Of a stretch of 64,000 nt of DNA, positions 6,178 to 51,581 are shown piece by piece. The stretch is from the NCBI GenBank assembly GCA_017557635.1, contig JAFYYH010000007.1, positions 1 through 64,000 of the forward strand, read 5' to 3'. Both the position numbers and the translations under genes were made by a program. Under the pieces are notes generated by a model. It did not search any database. It was not told the origin of the DNA and saw only the letters and a list, made by a program, of their open reading frames with translations. Position 1 is the stretch's first letter, and the number at the start of each line of letters is the position of its first letter. The DNA comes from Bacteroidaceae bacterium (lineage in GTDB: Bacteria; Bacteroidota; Bacteroidia; Bacteroidales; Bacteroidaceae).

Positions 6178-6867
6178 TTACTCCAGTTTGCCACCCATTG
6201 AGAGAACTAGCTGCTGCATTGAGGCTTTGATCTCAACCTTGTCCTTGTCCTTGCTCTCCTCAGTGGTGTCCTCGGTTACGGTCTTGCCGTTTACTGACCA
6301 CTTCTTGGCATCGGCCTCGCTGAGCTCGGCAGTCTGCTCGCGGAAGAACTGAATGGCCATCTCCTCAGTGGGGCAGTTGTAGTTGGTCTTGGACTCTACG
6401 CACTTGTCACCCTTGAACTTGGCAAGCCACTCAAGCTTGTAGTTCACGTAATCCCAAGTGAGCAGAACCTCATCGCCCTTATCCTCATAAACGGGGGTGC
6501 CGATGCCCATCAGGGTCATGTATGAACCCATCAGGCCCTGTACGCCGGCGCCGGCAGTTCCGCCGTTCTGCCTGGCATACTCTTCATTGGCTGCGCGGAG
6601 CGAGTCGTTATAGCGGTTAATCTCATTTGTGGTTGCGTTAAGCTCGTTTACCTGACGGTCAACCTGAGCCTCGACTGCTTTCTCGGCAGACTGGAGGGCT
6701 TTCTCGGTTGCCTTCTCGGTAGTCTTTTCGACCGATTTCTCTACGGCTTTGGTCACACCTTTCTCAGCGGCCTTCATGGCCTTGTCAGTCAGGCGGTTGA
6801 GCAACTGTGCATTGGAAGGAACTGTGAACAATGCTGCAGCAAATAACAGAAGGAATGCTTTCTTCAT
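6178..6867 (-). CDS. Secreted coiled-coil protein of unknown function
   Basis: The 229-residue product has a signal peptide (MKKAFLLLFAAALFTVPSNAQ) and then about 60 residues of near-uninterrupted Ala/Glu/Lys helix built from short repeats of the type EKSVEKTTEKATEKALQSAEKA. A globular domain follows from about residue 105 (GVQGLMGSYMTLMGIGTPVYED). The first part should form a long amphipathic helix or coiled coil in the periplasm. No enzymatic motif is visible. It is first in a two-gene operon with the small lipoprotein downstream. Confidence 0.75.
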   Translation of the reverse strand: MKKAFLLLFAAALFTVPSNAQLLNRLTDKAMKAAEKGVTKAVEKSVEKTTEKATEKALQSAEKAVEAQVDRQVNELNATTNEINRYNDSLRAANEEYARQNGGTAGAGVQGLMGSYMTLMGIGTPVYEDKGDEVLLTWDYVNYKLEWLAKFKGDKCVESKTNYNCPTEEMAIQFFREQTAELSEADAKKWSVNGKTVTEDTTEESKDKDKVEIKASMQQLVLSMGGKLE

Positions 6868-6961: not shown

Positions 6962-7636
6962 ATGACCAGAAGGGCGTTTTGCATATTGATTCTCTTTTTA
7001 GCCGTCTCACAGGCGCTCGTAGCACAGGGCTATTGCTGTGACCGACAGGGCGCAAGGCTTGAATATGTAAGGAAAAATATCAAGGACGGAAGCACCGAAT
7101 GGCGTCACACCGTAAACGTCCAGAAGGTCACGAAAGGGTCCGATGGCAGCGTGGTGACATCGGCCTCAACATTCCTCAAGGCCAACGGCAAACCCTATTA
7201 CAAGGGCGATATCATAGAGGAGGTGGTGCTACGTCCCAACAACGATGTCTGGGTGGATATGGAAGCCGTCACAATCAATTACGTAAAGGGCCGGTTCGGT
7301 CTGAACGCAACGGCCGATGCCGCCCCCTCAATAATTCCGGCCGATATGGCTCCGGGCGATACGCTGCCGCAGGTTACGGGCAAGGGCAAGGTGAGCCTGA
7401 TTTCATTCTCGTACCGCATCTGGGACCGCAAGGTGCTGCGCCGCGAGACCATCTCACTGCCCGCCGGCACGTTTGACTGCGTGGTGCTGCAGGAACGCAA
7501 ACTGGAGTCGGGGCCCGGCCACAACCGCGACGTGCTGAACCACACCTGGTACTGCAAGGGCATAGGTATGGTGCGCCACGACACCTATATTGACGGCAAA
7601 CTGGATACATCAGAGACACTAACCCAAATAAGATGA
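6962..7636 (+). CDS. Secreted DUF3108-like protein
   Basis: The 224-residue product has a signal peptide (MTRRAFCILILFLAVSQALVAQ) and a beta-rich body. The pattern GRFGLNATAD, SYRIWDRKVLRRETISLPAGTFDCVVLQE and WYCKGIGMVRHDTY is typical of DUF3108/TapB-like periplasmic proteins of Bacteroidetes. Their molecular role is not known to me. Its stop overlaps the start of the dipeptidase gene (ATGA at 7633-7636), so the two are translationally coupled and probably co-regulated. Confidence 0.75.
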   Translation: MTRRAFCILILFLAVSQALVAQGYCCDRQGARLEYVRKNIKDGSTEWRHTVNVQKVTKGSDGSVVTSASTFLKANGKPYYKGDIIEEVVLRPNNDVWVDMEAVTINYVKGRFGLNATADAAPSIIPADMAPGDTLPQVTGKGKVSLISFSYRIWDRKVLRRETISLPAGTFDCVVLQERKLESGPGHNRDVLNHTWYCKGIGMVRHDTYIDGKLDTSETLTQIR

Positions 7637-8979
7637 AACAATATATCGAGCAGAATAAAGAGCGCTTCTTTGAGGAGCTCTTTTCAATCCTGAGAATTCC
7701 TTCAATCAGTGCCAAACCCGAGAACAAGCCCGATATGGTGCGCTGCGCCAATCGTCTTAAGGAACTGCTTCTTGAGGCCGGGGCCGATATGGCAGATGTC
7801 ATGCCCACCAGCGGCAATCCGGTAGTGTTCGGCCGCAAGATCATAGACCCCTCATACAAGACAATTCTGGTGTACGGACACTACGATGTCCAGCCGCCCG
7901 AACCCCTTGAAAAGTGGAAGACAGACCCCTTTGAGCCGGTCATTCACGACGACGCCATCTGGTGCCGCGGAGCCAATGATGACAAGGGTCAGCTGTTCAT
8001 GCACATCAAGGCGTTTGAGTTCATGGTACGCTCGGGTCAGCTCAAGCATAATGTAAAGTTTATTTTCGAAGGAGAGGAGGAGATTGGAAGCCCCTCACTG
8101 CCCGAATTCATAAAGCAGAACAAGGAATTGCTGGCCGCAGACATCTGCCTGGTATCGGACACCACGATGATATCGGACAAGGTTCCGTCAATAAACTGCG
8201 GAATGCGCGGTCTGGCTTACCTGGAGGTAAAGGTGACCGGCCCCAACAAGGACCTGCACTCAGGCCATTACGGCGGTGCGGTGGCCAACCCCATCAACGT
8301 GCTCTGCGACCTGATTTCATCACTGATTGACAAGGACGGCCGCATAACCGTGCCCGGATTCTACGACAAGGTGGTAGAACTTACGCCCGATGAGCGCAAG
8401 ATGCTGGCCCGCGCCCCGTTCAGCATGGATGAGTTCAAGGAGTTCCTGGACATCAATGAGGTGAAGGGAGAGAAGGGCTACACCACGATGGAGCGCATAG
8501 GCATACGTCCCTCATTGGATGTGTGCGGCATCTGGGGCGGCTACACCGGCCAGGGCGCCAAGACGGTCCTGCCCAGCGAGGCACACGCCAAGATCTCCAT
8601 GCGTCTGGTTCCCAAGCAGACCAGCGCCGAGATATCAAAGATGTTCATGGACCATTTCCTGCGCATAGCACCCCCATACGTAAAGGTAGAGGTAACCCCG
8701 TACGAAAGCGGTGACGGATTCCTTATCCCCATTTCGTCCGATGCCTACAAGGCTGCATCACGTGCCATAGGTGAGGTTTACGGCATCGAGCCGGTGCCCA
8801 GCCGCGGAGGCGGAAGCATTCCTATCCTGGCTGAGTTCCAGAAGGTGCTGGGTCTGGATCCGCTGCTCATGGGATTCGGCCTGGAGCGTGACACCATTCA
8901 CAGCCCCAACGAGAGTTACCTGCTGCGCCAGTTCTTTGGCGGCATGGAGAGCATAGCACTCTTCTACAGGTACTATTAA
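7633..8979 (+). CDS. M20 family metallo-dipeptidase
   Basis: This 448-residue protein of the M20 zinc peptidase family has the full set of metal-site blocks: YGHYDVQPPEP (His and the adjacent Asp), RGANDDKGQ (bridging Asp), FEGEEEIGSPS (catalytic and metal Glu), LVSDTTM, and the C-terminal RDTIHSPNES (His). The dimerisation insert begins around DLHSGHYGGAV. There is no signal peptide, so it acts in the cytoplasm, probably on dipeptides or N-acylated amino acids. It starts by ATGA overlap with the upstream DUF3108-like gene. Length and motifs are normal. Confidence 0.92.
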   Translation: MKQYIEQNKERFFEELFSILRIPSISAKPENKPDMVRCANRLKELLLEAGADMADVMPTSGNPVVFGRKIIDPSYKTILVYGHYDVQPPEPLEKWKTDPFEPVIHDDAIWCRGANDDKGQLFMHIKAFEFMVRSGQLKHNVKFIFEGEEEIGSPSLPEFIKQNKELLAADICLVSDTTMISDKVPSINCGMRGLAYLEVKVTGPNKDLHSGHYGGAVANPINVLCDLISSLIDKDGRITVPGFYDKVVELTPDERKMLARAPFSMDEFKEFLDINEVKGEKGYTTMERIGIRPSLDVCGIWGGYTGQGAKTVLPSEAHAKISMRLVPKQTSAEISKMFMDHFLRIAPPYVKVEVTPYESGDGFLIPISSDAYKAASRAIGEVYGIEPVPSRGGGSIPILAEFQKVLGLDPLLMGFGLERDTIHSPNESYLLRQFFGGMESIALFYRYY

Positions 8980-9070: not shown

Positions 9071-10393
9071 TTAAAGCTCGAAAGAGCTGTTGCGGTAGAA
9101 CTCCAGCAGGGCTGTGTTGAACAGGTACTCGTAGCGGTACTTGATAACATCGGCCTGGGCTGTCACGAGTCTGTTCTTGGACTCGTTGAACTCAGTTATA
9201 CTGGCTTTTCCACCTTCATATTTTGCCTGCACAAGCTCGAATGACTCCTGTGCGCTGGTCTGTACTTCCTGACTGCTCTCATAGCGGGTCTTGGAGGCTA
9301 CGGCGTTGTAGTAGGCCTGCTGTATCTCTTTGTAGAGCTGTTTCTTGACGTTGTCCAGCTGCATCTCCTGATTCATGCGGCTCAGCTGTGCCGAACGTAC
9401 GTTGTTGCGGGTGCTGTTACGTGAGAATATGGGGATGTTCAGACTCAGACCTACCTGGGGGCCGAAGTTGTTCTTCAGCTGGCTGCCAAAATTATCGGCC
9501 GTACGGTTGGAACTGGTGTAGTAACCTGTTCCGGCGCCTGCATTCATGGACAGAGTGGGGTAGTATGAACCCTTTGCAATGTCTATGCTGTTATCGGCCT
9601 GCTGCAGTCGGATCTCCTCTGACCTGATGGCGGGCTTGATGTCAAGGGCCTGGGTGTATATCTCCTCGGGGCTGTCGGGCATGCTGAATTCCATGTCATC
9701 GGCCTCGGGCTGGATGATTTCAAAACCGTCGGGGGTGGGGAGCTCAAGCAACTGGGTCAGGGTGAGTTTGCTCATACTCAGGTTGTTCCGGGCCTGGGTC
9801 ACGGCAAGACGGCTCTGGGCCAGTGTGGCTTTCTGTGACGATACCTCGGCGCTGCTGGCCTTGCCTATGGCTGCAAGGGCGGTCAGGCGCTCAACCTGCA
9901 TTGAGTCAATGGCTACCTGATTCTGTGCCACTTCCAGTATGCTCTGGTTGTAGACAATCTGTATGAATGACTCGGCTACCTGTACGCGGACATCGTCCTT
10001 GATGCGTTCCAGGTCGCTCTTGGCGGCCTCGAGTCCCAACTTGGCGTTCTCTATGTTGCCCGATATACGACCGCCGGCAAACAGGGTTACGCCTGTGCCT
10101 ACGCTGAATGATGTGCTGGCGGTGTTGGTGTTGGCGTAGGTGTTGTCTATGGTCAGGCTTCGGCCGAATGACCAGTTCTGGGATGCGTTGGCTGACAGGT
10201 CGGGCAGACGGTTGCTGCGCGCTGTGTTCAGGTCAACTTCACGGGTCTGGGCGGCTATGTCGCTCTGGCGTATCTGTATGTTGTTCTCTATAGCGTAGTC
10301 TATGCAGCGCTGCAGGGTCCAACTCTCGGCGGCGCTGATGCTGCCGGCGCTCAGAATGGCTGCCAATGCTACTGATATTGCTTTAGTTTTCAT
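9071..10393 (-). CDS. TolC-family outer-membrane efflux protein
   Basis: The 440-residue product has a signal peptide (MKTKAISVALAAILSAGSISA) and the two-fold repeated TolC/OEP pattern: WTLQRCIDYAIENNIQIRQSDI near the N-terminus, long helical hairpins, and the second repeat with LNIPIFSRNSTRNNVRSAQL. By family it forms the trimeric outer-membrane channel of a tripartite pump. It is the last of five genes on the minus strand (ATPase, two permeases, adaptor, TolC), with 2 bases separating it from the adaptor gene. Confidence 0.92.
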   Translation of the reverse strand: MKTKAISVALAAILSAGSISAAESWTLQRCIDYAIENNIQIRQSDIAAQTREVDLNTARSNRLPDLSANASQNWSFGRSLTIDNTYANTNTASTSFSVGTGVTLFAGGRISGNIENAKLGLEAAKSDLERIKDDVRVQVAESFIQIVYNQSILEVAQNQVAIDSMQVERLTALAAIGKASSAEVSSQKATLAQSRLAVTQARNNLSMSKLTLTQLLELPTPDGFEIIQPEADDMEFSMPDSPEEIYTQALDIKPAIRSEEIRLQQADNSIDIAKGSYYPTLSMNAGAGTGYYTSSNRTADNFGSQLKNNFGPQVGLSLNIPIFSRNSTRNNVRSAQLSRMNQEMQLDNVKKQLYKEIQQAYYNAVASKTRYESSQEVQTSAQESFELVQAKYEGGKASITEFNESKNRLVTAQADVIKYRYEYLFNTALLEFYRNSSFEL

Positions 10394-48243: not shown

Positions 48244-48271
48244 TCTCGCAGAAATCGCAGAAATCGCAGAA
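48244..48271 (+). repeat. Left boundary repeat of the nuclease island
   Basis: Three copies of the unit (A)TCGCAGAA in a row make a 28-base block. Its reverse complement matches 25 of 28 bases at 51554-51581. The remaining gene-free stretch (48242-48575) holds this repeat, the hairpin at 48277-48349 and a promoter. Confidence 0.6.
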
Positions 48272-48276
48272 TAATA

Positions 48277-48349
48277 AACCACGAATCTCACGAATTAACA
48301 CGAATAAACCCGCGATAGGGGATTCGTGTAATTCGTGAGATTCGTGGTT
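48277..48349. repeat. Long inverted repeat with CACGAAT motifs
   Basis: Arms of about 28 bases (48277-48305 and 48322-48349) match except for one extra A, with a 16-base loop. Each arm carries three GTGTAATTCGTGAGATTCGTGG-related repeats of the CACGAAT word. It could form a very stable hairpin at the 3' end of the DMT gene. Confidence 0.75.
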
Positions 48350-48468: not shown

Positions 48469-48575
48469 TAACAAACCGAATTACCTAACGCATTTTTTAA
48501 GCAATGAAACTTGAGAAAATCCTTGAGAAATTGAACTCTTTATAGAAGGGCCAGTTTCTAAAAATCATTAATAAT

Positions 48576-50354
48576 TTGTCCTCTGCAGAGAAAAATAATC
48601 CCAAGTTGGAGGCAATACTTAGTAAGGCCGATTCTAATCTCAAAAATGCAGATGCTGTTCAAGTTACTCAAGCTTTTGAGGCTCTTTCCGATAGGTATGT
48701 GGATTTTGTTATGGAAGATTATTCTAAAGTATCTTCCCAGTTGGATATCCTCCTTAACATTGTCACAAGAGATGGCAATTGTATAATGAGGCTTGATTGG
48801 TTTGCCAAATTGTATGAGGATGAGATTAAAAAGCAAAAGAAAGCAATCGAAGCCTTCAAAGAGGATGTAAATGCTGACAAACCATCAATGGAACAATCAA
48901 GGGTCAGAGACTACAAGGTGTTTGCTGCCTGCCTTAGAACTGCTTATTTTAACGACGTTGCATTGAATTTCGCGCCAAAAATAACTGCGGACGAACAATC
49001 TATTTTGGATACATTGGCTAAGTCCCTTGAGTTATCAATGGATGAAAGAACAATGATTAAATATGCTGTTTTAGGTATAAAAAAGAACAGCAATATTGAT
49101 GATGTTGTTGCAGAACTGAAAGACAAGGGACTGATTTTCCTCTCTAAAAAGAACAATGTTTTATATGTTGCTGATGAAATAGTATCTCTTGCAAGAAAGA
49201 TCAGAGGCAGAGAGGTTGCTGATAAGTATTTCCGTAGAGTATTACTTCAGTTGAAGGAAGCTCAAATCAATATGATTTGTCGCAAACATGGTATAGATAA
49301 TAAACTGTTGCTTAATGAGAAAATTGAGCTGATTATCTCTTCGGGCATTTCTTTCTCGGAGGTCCTTAAGGAAGATATTCATAAGCCTGATGTTAAACTA
49401 ATTGACAAAAAGAAAGCAATTACATCGTTATGTGATGAAAGACTTAACATATCTCCAGCAATAAAAGGAACGACATTAGATGATAAAGTCGATAATCTTA
49501 TTGCTTATTTTGCCAAGCAATATGGGGAAGATAAGATAGGTATTTCAACAGGAGGATATGAAAGAATGCTTCTTGATCTTGATGAATTTGTAAAGGGATC
49601 AAGCAAAATGATCCGTAATACTTTCCAAATACAAGATGAAGACATTATGCATGGCGAGTTCCTGATGGATTACAATATTATGCCACGTGATGTGTTAGAA
49701 CTGTTTCCGTCAGAGGCTTTAGTTGAACTCTGTAATGAAAGGAATATCAAGACTAGAGGTAATATAATTGACAATATTCTTGCGGCTTATAAGGATACAG
49801 AGGATTTACTGGTCGAAAACTATGAAAGCATAGGTTTTAGAGATATTAATTCACTTAAAGAAAATGGTATTTCTATATCTGAGGCTGAATTGGGTACTAC
49901 TTTTGAAGATATAACGAAATACATCTTCGGCAAACTCGGTTTAGATGTTGATGAGAAACTACGGAAAAAGCTGAATACCGAGAAGGACAAGATGGATATT
50001 CTTATACGCACAGGAGAAAAATCTGTCGTTTTGGTTGAATGTAAGACAGTAAAAGAAAACGGGTATAACAAATTCAGTCAAATATCAAGACAAGTGAAAT
50101 CATACAAGGCTTTGCTTGAAAAGAATGACTATCAAGTTGACAAGATAATAATTGTAGCCCCTGATTTCTCTGACGATTTTGTGGCCGATTGTGGAGATGA
50201 ATTCTCACTTCCTATTACACTCCTAAAGGCGGGATCTTTGTCAAGTATATATAACGCGGTCAAGACAACGGGGTCTAACCGTTTCAGTTTACAAATGTTT
50301 TACAGAGATATATTGGTGCAAGAGGATCGTATTATCAGAGCCTTGAATAAGTAG
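48576..50354 (+). CDS. Putative PD-(D/E)XK nuclease with SAP-like repeats
   Basis: The 592-residue protein has no family I can name. Its C-terminus is a restriction-endonuclease-like fold: helix TTFEDITKYIFGKLG (E444), then D474 in KDKMDILIR and E488-x-K490 in VVLVECKTVKE, as in Mrr/Vsr-type PD-(D/E)XK enzymes. A SAP-like DNA-binding motif lies at 376-406 (LFPSEALVELCNERNIKTRG), with weaker similar stretches at 226-257 and 275-316. The N-terminal 150 residues are helical. Base composition is markedly more AT-rich than the neighbours, suggesting transfer. The open frame starts only at TTG 48576. A better start, ATG 48505 (MKLEKILEKLNS), is in another frame, so the 5' end may be damaged. Confidence 0.68.
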   Translation: MSSAEKNNPKLEAILSKADSNLKNADAVQVTQAFEALSDRYVDFVMEDYSKVSSQLDILLNIVTRDGNCIMRLDWFAKLYEDEIKKQKKAIEAFKEDVNADKPSMEQSRVRDYKVFAACLRTAYFNDVALNFAPKITADEQSILDTLAKSLELSMDERTMIKYAVLGIKKNSNIDDVVAELKDKGLIFLSKKNNVLYVADEIVSLARKIRGREVADKYFRRVLLQLKEAQINMICRKHGIDNKLLLNEKIELIISSGISFSEVLKEDIHKPDVKLIDKKKAITSLCDERLNISPAIKGTTLDDKVDNLIAYFAKQYGEDKIGISTGGYERMLLDLDEFVKGSSKMIRNTFQIQDEDIMHGEFLMDYNIMPRDVLELFPSEALVELCNERNIKTRGNIIDNILAAYKDTEDLLVENYESIGFRDINSLKENGISISEAELGTTFEDITKYIFGKLGLDVDEKLRKKLNTEKDKMDILIRTGEKSVVLVECKTVKENGYNKFSQISRQVKSYKALLEKNDYQVDKIIIVAPDFSDDFVADCGDEFSLPITLLKAGSLSSIYNAVKTTGSNRFSLQMFYRDILVQEDRIIRALNK

Positions 50355-50394
50355 TTCTGATTGCTTGTTCTCGTTTTAAATCAAAACCCCAAAG

Positions 50395-50430
50395 AAAAAG
50401 AGTCTTCACATTATCGTGAGGACTCTTTTT
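50395..50430. terminator. Bidirectional terminator between the two nuclease genes
   Basis: AAAAAGAGTC and GACTCTTTTT arms with an imperfect inner stem lie between the convergent genes, with A and T tracts on both sides. Confidence 0.8.
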
Positions 50431-50433
50431 TTT

Positions 50434-51357
50434 TTATAGTGTTGCTATTTCTTCAATAGAAAGCCCTGTACATTTTGAGATAACATCAATAGGAATGCCT
50501 TCCGCTTTCATGGCTTTGGCAGTATTGGATATACCTTTAGCCTCACCGCGAGCTTCGCCGGTCATAATGGCGGTAGCGAGTTGGCTCTCGCGATCCCACT
50601 GGGCCATCACCTTGCGGACATATTTCATCTGCATTTCCTCTGTCATACTCGCAAAACTACACACTTCAAACAACTTATCAAAACCTTTACCCATAAATTC
50701 TTGCGGCATCTCCTTCATCTGGCCGGTATTTTTTATGGCGTAAAGCATATAATCCTGCTTGCTGTATAGTTCACTGCAACTCTTTTGGAACTTAGGTAAT
50801 TCAACTGTAACAAAATGAATACTGTCTGTGAATTGCTCATTATCACCATCATCCTCCCGAATACTGAAATGCCTTATAGTCTTGTCATTTTGGCCGATGC
50901 CCGACAACTCAAAATCCAGGATGCCAATCATGTAAATTGGAGGTAATTTATAACGTGTTTGGGAAGAATACTTTTCATTGGAGCCTTTTCCGACTCTGTT
51001 GCGAATAGGGAAACTGGAATAGAAAACCATTCTGTCATTGAAATCCATTTGAGGACAAACTTGCATCTCAATTGTCAACGACGATCCGTCATCGGTTTCG
51101 CAGTAAATGTCGTAGATTCCGCTTTGTGCATCCTCGCGATCGGGCTCTTGTTCTTGGGCTCCAAGTGAAACACTTTGGATGTGTTTCTCGGGCAAAATAC
51201 TGTCTACCAGCATAAGAAGCAAATCTTCATGCCCTTCTGTGCCAAATGCCCATTTAAAAGCAAAATCACGCTTTAGGTCGATGAATGTTACATTAAACTC
51301 TGCAGCACTAATAGCTTGTCGCAATTCTTTCTCACTCATGGTCTCGTTTTGTTTCAT
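50434..51357 (-). CDS. Rpn-family PD-(D/E)XK nuclease/transposase
   Basis: The 307-residue protein matches the PDDEXK_2/Rpn family: DLKRDFAFKWAFGTEGHEDLLLMLVDSIL, a core with D83 (GIYDIYCETDDG) and E97-x-Q99 (LTIEMQV), the RMVFYSSF helix, and the usual helical tail with EARGEAKGISNTAKAMK. Rpn proteins promote RecA-independent DNA recombination and some defend against phage; they are often annotated as transposases. It converges with the SAP nuclease gene across a shared terminator. Confidence 0.87.
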   Translation of the reverse strand: MKQNETMSEKELRQAISAAEFNVTFIDLKRDFAFKWAFGTEGHEDLLLMLVDSILPEKHIQSVSLGAQEQEPDREDAQSGIYDIYCETDDGSSLTIEMQVCPQMDFNDRMVFYSSFPIRNRVGKGSNEKYSSQTRYKLPPIYMIGILDFELSGIGQNDKTIRHFSIREDDGDNEQFTDSIHFVTVELPKFQKSCSELYSKQDYMLYAIKNTGQMKEMPQEFMGKGFDKLFEVCSFASMTEEMQMKYVRKVMAQWDRESQLATAIMTGEARGEAKGISNTAKAMKAEGIPIDVISKCTGLSIEEIATL

Positions 51358-51522: not shown

Positions 51523-51551
51523 AAAAACGTCCGGCAAAACCGGACGTTTTT
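51523..51551. terminator. Terminator AAAAACGTCCGG / CCGGACGTTTTT
   Basis: A 12-base perfect stem with loop CAAAA and flanking A and T tracts sits downstream of the gltD-like gene (minus strand). The rest of 51358-51581 holds an imperfect hairpin around 51408-51450 and the right boundary repeat. Confidence 0.85.
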
Positions 51552-51553
51552 AA

Positions 51554-51581
51554 TTCTGCACTTTCTGCGCTTTCTGCGAGA
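51554..51581 (-). repeat. Right boundary repeat of the nuclease island
   Basis: It is the inverted counterpart of 48244-48271 (25 of 28 matches) and ends at the last base before the stop codon of the reductase gene. Confidence 0.6.

Follow-up and report, generated by a model that had tools for sequence, protein, structure and literature searches.

What does a protein do that seems to join several DNA-binding units to a nuclease domain, and does it act together with the Rpn gene beside it? This question is raised by one gene in the 64,000-nt stretch of Bacteroidaceae DNA analyzed here (the window). A sequence-only reading had described its product as an unrecognized nuclease with SAP-like repeats and a C-terminal PD-(D/E)XK domain, and had suggested that, with the neighboring Rpn gene, it could form a two-component anti-phage system. 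The open reading frame itself (48576-50354, plus strand, 592 aa) is present as described. We followed the gene through its relatives, its flanking DNA, and its neighbors.

Reading frame and domains of the nuclease

The following features were located in and directly before the gene.

48504..48575, plus strand: the N-terminal 24 codons of intact relatives, broken in the window copy by an in-frame TAG at 48543-48545
48576..50354, plus strand: nuclease open reading frame, 592 aa from TTG; SAP-repeat/Mrr-like PD-(D/E)XK family (phrog_34709)
48957..49061, plus strand: weak TerB-like helix pair, residues 128-162 (hhalign 78% over 35 residues, 18 TerB sequences)
49239..49340, plus strand: SAP-like unit 1, residues ~222-255 (94.6% with the SAP of L093 in the sliding profile scan)
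49413..49520, plus strand: SAP-like unit 2, residues ~280-315 (sliding scan against the SAP of L093, 85.8%)
49674..49790, plus strand: SAP-like unit 3, residues ~367-405 (scan against the SAP of L093, ~92%; aligned with the Pfam SAP of L093)
49890..50189, plus strand: PD-(D/E)XK core, residues 439-538 (hhalign against Mrr-type sequences; 19 of the 42 members matched by Mrr_cat with E ≤ 1)
49995..49997, plus strand: predicted catalytic D474, invariant in 42 of 42 members
50037..50045, plus strand: E488-C-K490 motif, with E488 and K490 unchanged in all 42 members

The window copy differs from its relatives at the N terminus. In L002, L007, L003, and other full-length members, the protein begins with MKL 24 codons upstream of TTG 48576, and an ATG in the window at 48504, likewise 24 codons 5' of the TTG, aligns with the start of these relatives. 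The match to relatives spans 48504-50351 with one TAG inside it, at codon 14 counted from ATG 48504, and TTG 48576 is simply the first start codon listed past this TAG. In the alignment, the same frame is open in 40 full-length relatives sharing the upstream N terminus; an internal TAA was found in one other member, in genome G695. TAG is read as a stop here because the window nuclease gene itself terminates in TAG, and recoding of TAG was set aside on the same ground. The relatives closest to the window protein are L002 (85% identical), L007 (80%), and L003 (77%). Over the 592 codons shared with L002, pN was 0.086 and pS was 0.84; purifying selection has therefore acted on this sequence, up to the recent past at least.

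Since relatives start 24 codons upstream and the TAG lies at codon 14, the window copy is probably truncated, weakly expressed, or decaying. That the window gene alone is a pseudogene, with its function ended by the early stop and its frame surviving because the change is recent, comes slightly short of an even chance, and such a loss would leave the readings of the family unaffected. It is favored by the position of the TAG in a frame that the 40 relatives keep open and by the use of the same codon to finish the gene, and is countered by the 592 open and conserved codons beyond the TAG (pN and pS as above), by the possibility that translation restarts at the downstream TTG, and by the possibility that a single base in a draft contig is a sequence error.

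Conservation was assessed in an alignment of 42 rows, which omits L077 (on the same contig as L004), L064 (one TAA), the distant relative L093, and the fragments L017, L074, L075, L076, L091, and L092; L186 and L189 were found later. L014, L016, and L187 represent one contig, as do L015, L018, and L188. D474, E488, K490, K493, K499, S501, R505, Q506, and Y510 were invariant in all 42 members, as was E444 in the helix preceding D474. The C-terminal region therefore carries the conserved D...E-x-K and the acidic residue in the preceding helix by which the PD-(D/E)XK superfamily is recognized. Hhalign comparison of this region with Mrr-type sequences gave 92% (6 sequences) and 89% (11 sequences), versus 0.1-1.4% for the N-terminal and middle regions; the second run used 11 of 12 Mrr and 18 of 18 TerB sequences. 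Together, these results agree with the earlier assignment of D474, E488-x-K490, and a preceding acidic helix to a predicted PD-(D/E)XK fold.

Single-sequence searches gave less. Mrr_cat (PF04471) was found at E ≤ 1 in 19 of the 42 members (best E, 2.8e-4; the 25 commonest of 71 Pfam families being listed), and a member from genome G1188 reached 21.8 bits in a genome scan against a cut-off of 21; Mrr_cat did not match the window protein at E ≤ 1, and the C terminus of L093, taken as a single sequence, gave 1.4% against the Mrr profile. No Pfam or NCBIfam model matched the window protein above its cut-off, no model fit in PADLOC, which lists no cut-off (best, Cas4 at E 0.018), and the PDB, searched by sequence and by profile, yielded no usable match (best E 0.013, unrelated molecules). 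From the profile comparison, we infer that the C terminus fits an Mrr-type PD-(D/E)XK domain.

The SAP-like units were traced through L093, which aligns with the family over 253 columns (hhalign 97.8%) and carries a Pfam SAP domain (PF02037; E 2.2e-7, 30.8 bits against a curated cut-off of 23.9). When 91 sliding 47-residue segments of the family profile were compared with this domain (median, 0.3%), three peaks were obtained, at residues 211-263 (94.6%), 271-317 (85.8%), and 349-413 (92.5%). The third peak was expected because the L093 alignment covers it; the other two were not so expected. The SAP motif read earlier at residues 376-406 proved right in substance, as it overlaps unit 3, which is aligned to the Pfam SAP of L093, and two further peaks, at 211-263 and 271-317, precede it. 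The three units were less alike when compared with each other (59.8, 42.1, and 9.5%), the first SAP-like stretch of L093 matched none of them (1-9%), and the Pfam matches obtained for the window protein at E ≤ 1 did not include SAP. TerB did not match the window protein, and the N terminus of L093 gave 1.2% against TerB. Collectively, conservation and profile comparison back the combination of a nuclease with several SAP-like units. A literature search, in its top-ranked results and with subscription papers largely outside its reach, returned no description of the nuclease family or of the channel pairing reported below. The family is unnamed, with three SAP-like units.

Distribution and mobility of the family

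Matches were scattered. Of 245 genomes from one family, 20 contained a match, in three cases a fragment; matches were also present in 18 of 393 genomes of the order (counting the window's own genome and the distant L093) and in 2 of 395 genomes of the phylum; a protein query of the host's own family found 1 of 301 genomes, which was the query itself. Further matches came from records titled Bacteroidales, Ignavibacteriales, Lentisphaeria, and Marinilabilia and from three Pseudoalteromonas plasmids, so that the family occurs in records labeled Bacteroidota, Ignavibacteriota, Lentisphaerota, and Pseudomonadota as well as in viral contigs. In Marinilabilia salmonicolor, the nuclease has lost part of its N terminus to a transposase-like gene immediately upstream (L008, 6803-7975), and the channel ORF is whole. 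The L093-type SAP nuclease also has a relative in a haloarchaeon, on Natrinema versiforme pNVE500 (L190, 5830-7470), with integrase and DNA methylase genes within 6 kb.

Five IMG/VR contigs carried the whole gene or a piece of it (L018, L016, L017, L186, and L189). On L018, a head protease gene and a neck gene flank the nuclease, which is encoded on the opposite strand, and on L016 the nuclease lies downstream of baseplate genes; L017, whose DNA is 87% identical to that of L016, has the nuclease cut by the contig end, and L189 holds an edge fragment. On L186 (4016-7770), the nuclease belongs to a three-gene plus-strand block amid minus-strand genes, together with genes for a membrane-type protein and a metallo-hydrolase-like protein. 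Phrog_34709 (PHROGs v4) gave whole-length matches with the homologs L018 (E 4.5e-233) and L186 (E 5.9e-105). The 50,697 phage records of INPHARED contained no match to the nuclease, and viral scans with L004 and L093 as queries gave nothing useful.

In 40 of 42 loci, with the window left out of the count, the gene had a lower GC content than the more distant flanking DNA; for the window nuclease gene, the values were 0.356 versus 0.527. Flanking repeats were found in 6 of the 41 loci with both flanks visible. They were inverted in four loci (L003, the window, L085, and L068) and direct in five (L085, L068, L006, L003, and L061), the inverted and direct cases of L085 and L068 being the same repeats seen both ways; 99 control blocks gave one inverted and zero direct cases. 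The repeats varied from locus to locus, and no shared terminal sequence was seen among them. The viral contig L016 and the plasmid L010 share DNA similarity over 1.9 kb, which extends barely beyond the gene, and in several pairs of relatives the similarity ends near the gene edges. Judged from where its sequences occur, this is a sporadic mobile accessory family exchanged among bacteria and phages.

In the window, GCAGAAA-type inverted repeats enclose a 3.3-kb low-GC island made up of the nuclease and Rpn genes, with the following features outside the nuclease gene.

48244..48279, plus strand: left arm of an imperfect inverted repeat (GCAGAAA units), just past the stop of the upstream gene
50391..50434, no strand assigned: terminator-like 19-nt hairpin with a T run at its end, separating the nuclease gene from the Rpn gene
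50434..51357, minus strand: Rpn (PDDEXK_2/recombination-promoting nuclease) gene, convergent neighbor
51546..51581, minus strand: right arm of the imperfect inverted repeat (GCAGAAA units), just past the stop of the downstream convergent gene

Several repeat structures were observed along the way. Beside the left arm, at 48277-48349, lies a perfect 21-nt hairpin (AACCACGAATCTCACGAATTA), whose core pattern occurs once in the window's own genome. In the ~0.84 Mb of this genome that was examined, there was one other clear three-unit inverted GCAGAAA-type pair (G000:C18:39469-40019), which brackets a small AT-rich two-ORF module that, judged by eye, resembles a toxin-antitoxin pair. Weaker single matches numbered seven, versus 0-3 in shuffled sequence. 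Modules bounded by GCAGAAA repeats are possibly a cassette class. At L003, 146-bp inverted repeats (7213-7358 and 10118-10262; 97% identical), each with an internal 25-nt hairpin, lie around the nuclease gene. At L085 (1473-6402), ~200-bp direct repeats (94%) surround four genes, including those for a 136-aa protein, the SAP nuclease, and a channel; the first gene of this block we take, by eye, to encode a DUF1016-like protein. At L068, the end of dnaK with a terminator-like stem (6451-6526) is duplicated beyond the nuclease (8459-8535), as if the gene had been inserted there.

Neighboring genes

Neighborhoods were compared across 48 loci, the 50 anchored loci less L077 and L093, of which 41 show an ORF on both sides of the nuclease. 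The window Rpn gene is the only match of its Pfam family in its own genome. An Rpn-like gene adjoins the nuclease in 2 of the 48 loci, the window and L003, and is convergent in both, the two Rpn proteins being 48% identical; in L007, an Rpn-like gene lies five ORFs away, and no Rpn-like ORF was present in the remaining loci searched. In L003, the 146-bp repeats lie on either side of the nuclease and stop at the Rpn gene, and the window island holds both genes. No conserved codirectional neighborhood with Rpn was found, and adjacency in 2 of 48 loci speaks against Rpn as a conserved partner. The two-component system proposed earlier therefore finds no support as a general rule, despite the island that the two genes share in the window.

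The earlier proposal had also called for a survey of defense genes around homologs, and the outcome was divided. Two of the three Pseudoalteromonas plasmid copies sit beside defense genes: in L009 the nuclease is followed by Sir2-HerA, and in L010 by a metallophosphoesterase, an EutP/PduV-annotated protein, a CARF6 protein, and a type IV restriction gene; in L011, no annotated defense gene follows. Around the Bacteroidota copies, PADLOC (E 1e-15) showed no clear enrichment. Among 140 nearby proteins (at most two genes per side, each of ≥100 aa), no family exceeded 2 of 140 among the 25 of 73 families listed, and among far proteins (genes five and six away; 96 proteins), none exceeded 3 of 96. 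In all, 73 families were named in the near scan versus 18 in the far scan, figures that count families rather than proteins and that include, on the near side, many overlapping one-member models. Many copies sit among housekeeping genes, and the M49 peptidase and dynamin genes that follow L004 were regarded as neighbors peculiar to that locus. The viral-contig and chromid contexts make an anti-phage role plausible as a prediction.

A different neighbor recurred. An ion-channel gene adjoins the nuclease on the same strand in 9 of the 48 loci, with a spacing between a ~30-nt overlap and an 81-nt gap. The channel is downstream in L002, L006, L008, L062, L088, and L089 and upstream, overlapping the nuclease, in L084, L085, and L090, where it is split into two ORFs; no channel adjoins the nuclease in L186. 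Seven of the nine linked channels, one of them the split one, contain the filter T-x-(E/D)-G-W-x-E, and the other two contain the K+ filter TVGYGD. Five of the Cav-like linked channels were scanned and matched Ion_trans at E 1e-26 to 1e-29, so that linked genes carry both Ion_trans and the filter T-x-(D/E)-G-W-x-(D/E) that were taken to mark a CavMr-like channel. The seven pairings with CavMr-like filters cover both gene orders and four parts of the nuclease tree, on which the channel label requires at least five changes. The K+ channel adjacency at L088 and L089 may be coincidence, because these two copies belong to a single lineage and channels of the K+ type are frequent in the nuclease-bearing genomes.

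To place a number on the adjacency, 34 of the 38 genomes with a nuclease match from the family and order sets were scanned, with 89 Ion_trans matches; six were adjacent to the nuclease, grouped in three lineages, versus 0.046 expected. This expectation was worked out once the adjacency was already apparent, from approximate genome sizes and a density of 0.85 genes per kb. Among the 50 channel loci drawn from the 89 matches, a model built from the channels of L002, L006, and L008 scored the linked L123 and L122 at 320 and 318 bits, and it also scored the unlinked L246 (genome G883, filter TLEGWND) at 241 bits and the fragment L250 (G695) at 121 bits. L246 and L250 are in ordinary surroundings, and the nuclease genes of G883 and G695 have no adjacent channel. 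Filters of the form T-x-(D/E)-G-W-x-(D/E) occurred in 5 of the 50 channel loci, two of them linked, and the linked L062 and L090, outside this set, add two more. Because related channels occur unlinked, the channel group is not exclusive to the SAP-repeat nuclease, and a subfamily restricted to it is ruled out by L246 and L250. CavMr-like relatives away from the nuclease, in genomes carrying it, were also noted at L252 (8426-9220) and L253 (5029-5484), the latter a half-length ORF adjoining a transposase-like ORF. The window copy has no channel: its own genome contains two Ion_trans matches, neither near the nuclease, and the best match there to the L002 channel is 24% identical.

The recurrent tight pairing of the nuclease with a CavMr-like channel gene is the novel part of these observations, and it would be new as a functional pair if the two work together. 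What most bacterial voltage-gated cation channels do in the physiology of the cell is poorly understood; the pairing with a mobile DNA nuclease gives CavMr-like channels a concrete candidate partner.

Possible functions and known systems

The reading that we favor, to which we give an even chance, is that of a mobile accessory DNA nuclease family that would act against invading DNA and is paired with a channel in a minority of loci. The SAP units would hold DNA, the N-terminal region would regulate the nuclease, and the nuclease would cut invading DNA, phage or plasmid, or the DNA of the host once triggered; a linked channel could be the sensor or a second, membrane-acting effector. This reading is weakened by the lack of clear enrichment of defense genes near Bacteroidota copies, by the many copies that sit among housekeeping genes, by the absence of matches in INPHARED and of a fitting PADLOC model, by the 39 of 48 loci without a visible adjacent channel, and by the 1.4% of the L093 C terminus against the Mrr profile. 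A more specific version is an electrically triggered immune pair, which we regard as improbable: phage entry would depolarize the membrane, the voltage-gated channel would open, Ca2+ would enter, perhaps acting through the N-terminal region of the nuclease, and the activated nuclease would cut DNA. Copies lacking a channel, such as that of the window, would then use a channel encoded elsewhere (G883, with its unlinked relative L246, offers an example), respond to another trigger, or be remnants.

Other readings explain part of the same data. In a FAN1-like DNA-processing or repair nuclease, the SAP units would recognize branched or damaged DNA and the PD-(D/E)XK domain would trim it, the gene spreading because it is useful under stress; the layout of FAN1 (SAP plus VRR nuclease) and the many copies among housekeeping genes, with no clear enrichment of defense genes, agree with this. 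The very sporadic, low-GC, repeat-bounded, and virus-borne distribution, which in the host's family comes down to the query itself among 301 genomes, makes repair rather unlikely. A further reading is that of a selfish mobile element whose nuclease, with Rpn in the window and L003, aids its own spread, for example through breaks that promote recombination into new sites. The excess of flanking repeats (6 of 41 loci versus 1 inverted and 0 direct cases in 99 controls), the similarity that stops near gene edges in several pairs, and the presence of Rpn within the same repeat-bounded island of the window point this way. However, the repeats differ between loci without a common terminal sequence, and transposition would have no evident need of an ion channel; we consider a selfish element unlikely.

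The roles within the channel pair could also be reversed. Membrane effectors depolarize the cell in several abortive-infection systems, and the channel could be such an effector, with sensing or regulation left to the nuclease: once the SAP units bind DNA, the channel would be released and would depolarize the cell. The tight same-strand pairing in both gene orders would be in keeping with this arrangement, to which we nevertheless assign a small chance, as the catalytic residues are invariant also in copies without a channel, 39 of 48 loci show no adjacent channel, and related channels are also found away from the nuclease.

The favored reading, of a mobile nuclease acting against invading DNA, can be set beside several known systems. 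Phrog_34709 is the same family as the window nuclease, and its PHROGs entry gives no function. The Rpn/PDDEXK_2 nucleases, convergent neighbors in the window and L003, are a separate protein family, adjacent in those two of the 48 loci only. Mrr-type nucleases (PF04471) share the C-terminal catalytic arrangement of E-x-K and an upstream acidic helix, and one member of the family exceeds the Mrr_cat cut-off; in contrast, the window protein lacks an Mrr_cat match at E ≤ 1 and has three SAP-like units. Mrr itself carries a winged-helix domain rather than three SAP-like units.

The VRR nuclease domain belongs to the PD-(D/E)XK superfamily, and VRR_NUC did not match the window protein at E ≤ 1 among the Pfam hits listed. 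FAN1, a eukaryotic crosslink repair protein, has one SAP, a ubiquitin-binding zinc finger, and a VRR nuclease domain (PMC4402529). It therefore resembles the family in having a SAP DNA-binding unit and a nuclease domain in one protein and differs in its single SAP, VRR domain, zinc finger, and eukaryotic origin. The earlier statement that the layout was unrecognized thus holds for the three SAP-like units and gives way for the joining of SAP to a nuclease as such. CavMr is a native prokaryotic voltage-dependent Ca2+ channel with the filter TLEGWVD, in which the glycine at position 4 is a selectivity determinant (PMC7041947). The filters of the seven linked channels are alike in having glycine at position 4 and an acidic residue at position 7. 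The linked channels differ from CavMr in that they adjoin a nuclease gene, that two further ones are of the K+ type (TVGYGD), and that their Ca2+ selectivity is predicted.
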